Positions 44,311 through 44,545 of a stretch of 64,000 nt of DNA are shown here, piece by piece (position 1 is the first letter of the stretch; every line of letters starts with the position of its first letter). The notes beneath the pieces are model-generated. The model ran no database searches. It worked only from the letters and a program-made list of their open reading frames with translations, and had not been told where the DNA came from. The stretch covers positions 1 to 64,000 of the forward strand of contig JACJNZ010000062.1 in assembly GCA_014695325.1 (NCBI GenBank), read 5' to 3'. Origin of the DNA: Cyanobacteria bacterium FACHB-502. Lineage in GTDB: Bacteria; Cyanobacteriota; Cyanobacteriia; Elainellales; Elainellaceae. A program made the translations under genes and the position numbers.

Positions 44311-44345
44311 TTAATGCGGGTTGAAAGAGAGCACTACGTTGACAT
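44311..44345 (+). CRISPR. Delocalised homing crRNA of a type V-K CAST
   Basis: A lone CRISPR-repeat 3' end (GCGGGTTGAAAG, 44316-44327) resembling the GGGTTGAAAG terminus of Scytonema CAST repeats is followed by an 18-nt guide, AGAGCACTACGTTGACAT (44328-44345). The guide matches tRNA-Val(GAC), read on the minus strand, perfectly at 44507-44524. The base before the target on the tRNA strand is preceded by GGTT (44525-44528), fitting the NGTN PAM of Cas12k. There is no array: only one partial repeat, as described for homing guides of V-K elements. Confidence 0.88.
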
Positions 44346-44463
44346 TCTTAGACGACACTAATTTGTCACCACCGATTAGACGACACTAATTTGTCTCAAA
44401 GACACTAATTTGTCATGAGCGACAACAATTTGTCACCGATGACATTTAATTAGTCACTGTACA
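44318..44463 (-). mobile_element. tRNA-proximal terminus of a type V-K CRISPR-associated transposon
   Basis: Reading inwards from 44463 on the minus strand: TGTACAGTGACTAATTAAAT, then GTCATCGGTGACAAATTG and three more GACAAATTAGTGTC blocks. This is closely similar to the ends of the ShCAST group. The element's tip is TGTACA at 44458-44463, next to the tRNA gene. From the PAM (44525) to the tip there are 61 bp, within the 60-66 bp window of Cas12k-directed insertion. The candidate target duplication is TTAGG (44464-44468). No second end and no tnsB, tnsC, tniQ or cas12k gene is visible in the window, so the left part seems lost or very distant. Confidence 0.88.
44354..44463. repeat. Five TnsB-like binding repeats
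   Basis: Plus-strand copies: GACACTAATTTGTCAC (44354), GACACTAATTTGTCTC (44382), GACACTAATTTGTCAT (44401), GACAACAATTTGTCAC (44421) and GACATTTAATTAGTCACTG (44441). They are near-palindromic GACA-N7-TGTC units spaced 19-28 bp, as at Tn7-like transposon ends where TnsB binds. Confidence 0.92.
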
Positions 44464-44471
44464 TTAGGCGA

Positions 44472-44545
44472 TGGACACAACTGGACTCGAACCAGTGACC
44501 CCTACGATGTCAACGTAGTGCTCTAACCAACTGAGCTATGCGTCC
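44472..44545 (-). tRNA. tRNA-Val (GAC)
   Basis: A complete cloverleaf on the minus strand: acceptor GGACGCA/TGTGTCC, D arm GCTC/GAGC, anticodon stem CTACG/CGTAG with loop TTGACAT (anticodon GAC, reading GUC), T arm ACTGG-TTCGAGT-CCAGT, discriminator A. No encoded CCA. It is the target of the adjacent CAST guide. The target covers the 3' part of the D arm through the anticodon loop, so insertion falls beyond the gene and leaves it intact. Confidence 0.95.

Follow-up and report, generated by a model that had tools for sequence, protein, structure and literature searches.

A probable relic of a tRNA-homed type V-K CAST beside tRNA-Val(GAC) in Cyanobacteria bacterium FACHB-502

The 427 bp at 44037-44463 of the window (the whole stretch of DNA analysed, 64,000 nucleotides) very probably represent the tRNA-proximal remnant, that is the left end, of a type V-K CAST whose other parts have since been lost. 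The left-end structure, the guide, the tRNA, the PAM, the spacing and one CRISPR repeat are all observed, as is the covariation of guide and target, and neither cas12k nor tracrRNA was found in the genome. Guide, PAM and spacing fit, but with cas12k, tracrRNA, the right end and any intact tnsB missing, the locus is an orphan scar and not a complete CAST. The kind of element is known already and is met here as a well-preserved relic.

The left end proper occupies 44318-44463 and consists of a truncated repeat (R*), an anchor guide, five TnsB-type sites and a TGTACA tip, outside of which lies tRNA-Val(GAC) with a GGTT PAM 61 bp away from the tip (Table 1). A preliminary description had placed a V-K CAST terminus beside this tRNA, and the sequence agrees with it in nearly every detail. 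The left end in the window has 83-84% DNA identity over approximately 146 bp to the left ends of genomes G059 and G025, so that the sites do resemble those of V-K CAST ends; the known left ends with which the window was compared lie about 1 kb from an intact cas12k. The tip given in that description was borne out by direct reading. Its count of five repeats, which are palindromic, also stands, although their form, GACA-N7-TGTC throughout, does not, four being GACA-N6-TGTC and the terminal one GACA-N7-AGTC.

Table 1. Features of the insertion, its host flank and the adjoining tRNA gene (positions in the window)
Feature	Position	Strand	Basis or remark
Small host ORF, 58 codons with stop; marks the left boundary	43863..44036	+	stop TGA 44034-44036; G001 homologue
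Inserted DNA, possibly CAST leader-side remains or deletion-junction DNA	44037..44178	.	absent between the same genes in G001
Full-length V-K CRISPR repeat GTCGCAATCGCCTGTCCCAAGTGAGGCAGGTTGAGAC, 37 nt, last one remaining	44179..44215	+	3' end slightly degenerate
Truncated repeat R* GGGTTGAAAG	44318..44327	+	position and sequence as in V-K left ends; R* described in PMC9938897
Anchor (homing) guide AGAGCACTACGTTGACA, 17 nt	44328..44344	+	0 mismatches to tRNA-Val protospacer
TnsB-type site 5, innermost	44354..44367	.	pattern reading; aligned with V-K left ends
TnsB-type site 4	44382..44395	.	pattern reading; aligned with V-K left ends
TnsB-type site 3	44401..44414	.	pattern reading; aligned with V-K left ends
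TnsB-type site 2	44421..44434	.	pattern reading; aligned with V-K left ends
TnsB-type site 1, terminal	44441..44455	.	pattern reading; aligned with V-K left ends
Left-end tip TGTACA	44458..44463	.	direct reading; aligned with V-K left ends
Presumed target-site duplication TTAGG	44464..44468	.	presumed; left flank GATTGAGG; other copy not intact
tRNA-Val(GAC), attachment site	44472..44545	-	ARAGORN, Rfam
Protospacer of anchor guide	44508..44524	-	inverted match to guide
PAM GGTT, fits GTN	44525..44528	-	direct reading, comparison with relatives

The sequence AGAGCACTACGTTGACAT at 44328-44345 has an exact reverse complement at 44507-44524 (18 nt, 100%), and this pair is the sole inverted repeat reported within 43800-44560. 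The guide itself is 17 nt long, as base 18 differs among relatives and matches here by chance; the identity to tRNA-Val(GAC) noted earlier thus holds, and the guide length of 18 nt given with it does not. The GGTT ahead of the target on the tRNA strand was read directly and is as in relatives, and from the start of the protospacer to the tip are the 61 bp that had been claimed. When 2000 flanks of 250 bp each, generated by a Markov model, were scanned for a guide match the best had 3 mismatches and occurred once, against 0 in the real flank, in agreement with the earlier judgement that chance is implausible. Similarly the guide matches its own flank exactly in 14 of 17 left ends and with 1-2 mismatches in the other three (a single own-flank score of 8, at L043, came from a second TGTACA chosen by the script, and separate reading gives 0), in contrast to a mean of 6.4 mismatches between guides and the flanks of other genomes. 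Most V-K left ends found by DNA similarity carry R* and then 17 nt matching the DNA just outside their own tip, usually exactly, and those with a matching guide have an NGTN PAM, a PAM-to-tip distance of 57-63 bp and various target genes, several tRNAs among them. The guide also follows the host tRNA allele, reading ..CACTACG.. in the window genome (G000), ..CACCACG.. in G025 and G354 and ..CGCTACG.. in G334, each identical to its own tRNA, with one mismatch in G059. Duplicated tRNA fragments do occur at attachment sites, the same-genus genome G001 giving an example, yet a chance match here, or a mere second copy of part of the tRNA beside repeats that have nothing to do with it, is of negligible probability; it is refuted by this covariation, by the constant PAM and spacing and by the fact that all 146 bp are homologous to CAST left ends.

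Nearly the same truncated-repeat and guide unit lies beside tRNA-Val in several other cyanobacterial genomes. A scan for the R*-guide pattern with up to 3 mismatches matched 11 of 390 genomes of the class, with one match for a reversed-pattern control. Across GTDB contigs the exact pattern had no match and a relaxed scan gave six named records, including Leptolyngbya sp. ULC077bin1, Pseudanabaena frigida ULC066bin1, Drouetiella hepatica Uher 2000/2452, filamentous cyanobacterium CCP3 and Phormidium sp. FACHB-1136. Where the tip is readable in the tRNA-Val relatives the PAM is GGTT and the tip 57-62 bp away. In Drouetiella hepatica, Pseudanabaena frigida and G059 cas12k and tracrRNA still stand beside the unit, and in G059 and in D. 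hepatica (G025, of the same family as the window genome; locus on JAHHHD010000047.1) cas12k, tracrRNA and array lie inward of the left end and tRNA-Val outside it, the order in D. hepatica being cas12k (930 bits to model NF038191), tracrRNA, array, R*, guide, left end, tRNA-Val(GAC). Several CAST relatives thus share the arrangement, the guide and the tRNA type, which is not what a general tRNA-fragment duplication lacking such relatives would give. Separately, G164 (95% complete) holds at a tRNA a V-K array of five repeats with an exact anchor guide and a full left end (C1:3236000-3248000, L144), and its genome gave no match for cas12k, making it another orphan.

The window shares with D. hepatica and G059 the tip, five TnsB-type sites, R*, a 17-nt anchor guide, the tRNA-Val target, the GGTT PAM and a spacing of 60-61 bp, and with D. 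hepatica an array repeat 91-92% identical; unlike both it lacks cas12k, tracrRNA, a right end and the array except for one repeat. Published V-K anatomy has an anchor spacer of 17 nt, an R* of about 12 nt and a PAM-to-left-end distance of 46-82 nt (PMC9938897), and the window keeps the order of those systems (tRNA, left end, anchor spacer, truncated repeat, CRISPR array) with a PAM-to-end distance of 61 bp inside that range. Those 118 cyanobacterial V-K systems, AnCAST among them, were selected for a clear cas12k (PMC9938897), in contrast to the window genome, which is without one.

Of the CRISPR array of 37-nt repeats one repeat is left in the window, at 44179-44215. The truncated repeat at 44318 had been noticed earlier as a single one, and this full-length repeat was overlooked. 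Array repeats of G025 and G068 share 91-92% identity with it over 34-37 nt, and it matches the arrays of G218, G304, G235 and G279 as well. It carries the GCT that in D. hepatica stands ahead of the opening repeat of the array, yet its 3' end is degenerate like that of a terminal repeat, a combination that would fit a possible collapse of the array by recombination. Upstream of it, 44037-44178 gave no convincing match in 390 genomes or in the retrieved loci of relatives. A search for further degenerate repeats in 44037-44175 gave no local score beyond those of shuffled sequence, 24% of shuffles equalling the best one, and a similar sequence pair is present there at 44095/44126. Between the full-length repeat and R*, the sequence GAAACAGAGCACTA at 44246-44259 resembles at 93% a sequence 77 bp downstream, the R*-guide junction GAAAGAGAGCACTA, and possibly is an older copy of the guide, or chance.

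The remaining parts of a CAST are missing from the locus and largely from the genome. Model NF038191, which detects cas12k in 99 of 390 genomes of the class (same-genus G001 included), gave zero candidates in the window genome, a 100-contig assembly rated 99.99% complete; a tracrRNA query that detects G059 and G136 had no match in the window genome. No tnsB, tnsC or tniQ lies between 44037 and 44463, no second TGTACA with TnsB sites occurs in the window and nothing of the kind near 44037, TTAGG-TGT is absent from the window, and Rfam over 36-46 kb returned at meaningful scores tRNAs alone. Elsewhere in the genome contig C78 carries V-K-type tniQ, tnsC and tnsB (4082-7090, L126), this being the only tnsB, whose product matches the solved V-K TnsB structure 7svw with 425 bits and is 92% identical to TnsB on G001 contigs C2 and C7. 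That a complete or still mobile V-K CAST exists, with its other parts misassembled or on another contig, would draw on these genes and on the V-K-like TGTACA ends also present on C78. This reading is largely refuted and very unlikely, given the zero cas12k candidates at such completeness, the absent tracrRNA, a C78 tnsB with the N-terminal third missing and an IS1-like transposase gene directly beside it, the close kinship of that TnsB to proteins on G001 contigs with no cas12k among the matches listed, and C78 ends that differ in sequence from the 44463 end. The C78 cluster was also considered as the lost half of the window element itself, and for this there is no support, its ends being of another sequence type and its TnsB being the one with 92% identity to that of the same G001 contigs. 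The search for the parts named in the preliminary description (cas12k, tnsB, tnsC, tniQ and a second end) thus yielded tnsC, tniQ and a truncated tnsB on C78, no cas12k and, in the window, no second end; the homing logic proposed there stands as past activity and not as present activity, with cas12k, tracrRNA, right end and intact tnsB absent.

How the element came to lie between the host gene and the tRNA can be read in part from neighbouring genomes. Homologues of the small host ORF at 43863-44036 occur in G001, G002, G009 and G017, and in G001 no spacer separates the homologue from the 3' end of a copy of tRNA-Val (GAGGATTAATGGACACAAC). The 427 bp being absent there, 44037-44463 is most simply an insertion in the window genome between the host stop codon and the tRNA, as this comparison suggests. 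The G001 junction was read at one edge of an island of approximately 59 kb flanked by 46-nt tRNA repeats, so that the empty site is interrupted by the island and the adjacency of host gene and tRNA is taken across an integrase-type att site. In G009 host gene and tRNA-Val are in order, 1.8 kb apart and without the left end. The island itself (C6:2606372-2665670, L022-L025), with its 46-nt copies of the tRNA 3' part on either side, makes tRNA-Val(GAC) also the target of an integrase-type element in this sister genome. At the host-side junction an intact second TTAGG was not found and there is no clean duplication on the far side; joined again, the flanks GAGGATT on the host side and TTAGGCGATGG on the tip side would read GAGGATTAGGCGATGG, which is consistent with a TTAGG duplication with its far copy damaged. 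Further left of the insertion, at 39475-42132 on the minus strand, an 885-aa NACHT protein with an NNH2 N-terminus and HEAT repeats is encoded, likely a STAND-type signalling or defence protein and not shown to be cargo.

The V-K biology already described (PMC9938897, PMC11406308) has Cas12k-guided insertion at a tRNA with the left end towards it. By this route Cas12k with tracrRNA and a short anchor crRNA would have bound the tRNA-Val(GAC) gene of an ancestor at GGTT, TnsB, TnsC and TniQ would have carried out the insertion at 61 bp from that PAM, the left end towards the tRNA, and a later deletion reaching to the host stop codon would have taken the right end, the cargo with the tns genes, cas12k and tracrRNA, and the greater part of the array. 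Deletions on the tRNA side would damage a tRNA gene the cell needs, which is probably why the left end persists, and today the element should be inert so long as no other element brings in Cas12k and TnsB. Against a relic stand the lack of a convincing source match for 44037-44178, a far side on which no clean target-site duplication is left, a deletion that ends within a few bases of the element/host junction, a coincidence without a shown cause, an empty site in G001 that is itself interrupted, and the resting of the cas12k absence on a 100-contig assembly. The same coincidence of boundaries with the host junction would suit a non-autonomous, MITE-like mini-CAST inserted as a unit of about 430 bp with proteins supplied in trans, as would the presence in this genome of MITE-like 213-bp elements with similar ends. 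Such a unit is nonetheless highly improbable, since it has no second end, neither TGTACA nor TnsB sites occur near 44037, no second full-length copy exists in 390 genomes, and a degenerate CRISPR repeat, needless for a minimal element, has been kept. The 213-bp elements (C78:7541-7753, C78:89727-89939 and C99:1222-1435; L126, L143 and L141) carry at either end a TGTACA tip with TnsB-type sites, are 79-96% identical and may be linked to V-K or Tn5469-like transposases; full-length copies also occur in G012, G025, G017, G018, G027 and G009, and full or near full-length ones in G004 and G006.

A relic at this site has company in the family. When the downstream side of tRNA-Val(GAC) was read in about 34 family members and some outgroups (G021 left out), a TGTACA tip 60-62 bp from the PAM was seen in G000, G025, G019, G004 and G017 and at such spacing in no other genome examined, and among these five only G025 has cas12k at the locus. 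The orphan ends of G019, G004 and G017 resemble the window in tip, spacing and lack of cas12k at the locus and differ from it in being more decayed, G019 keeping R* with a guide of two mismatches, G004 two sites and no guide, and G017 one site and no guide. From G025, with cas12k, array, guide and five sites, by way of the window to G017, where the tip and one site are left, runs a series that lets CAST decay be studied, along with any effect of remaining ends on re-insertion. That this one tRNA has five tips in the family, four of them at loci free of cas12k, is compatible with the idea that orphan V-K left ends persist at tRNA genes for a function: an intact set of TnsB sites next to the attachment site could keep new CASTs away from the tRNA (target immunity), or an incoming Cas12k could make use of the surviving anchor guide (guide reuse); we regard this as unlikely. 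With the relic reading, V-K homing events are readable from fossils of a few hundred bases after loss of every protein gene, and therefore surveys led by cas12k, such as that of the 118 systems (PMC9938897), undercount past insertions. The G017 contig that carries the host gene was considered as an intact version of the window insertion and set aside, the CAST there being different and sitting at tRNA-Gly. That G017 locus (C63:268000-285500, L149) is a decayed V-K CAST at tRNA-Gly(tcc), with tniQ, a split cas12k and an R* with a tRNA-like guide.
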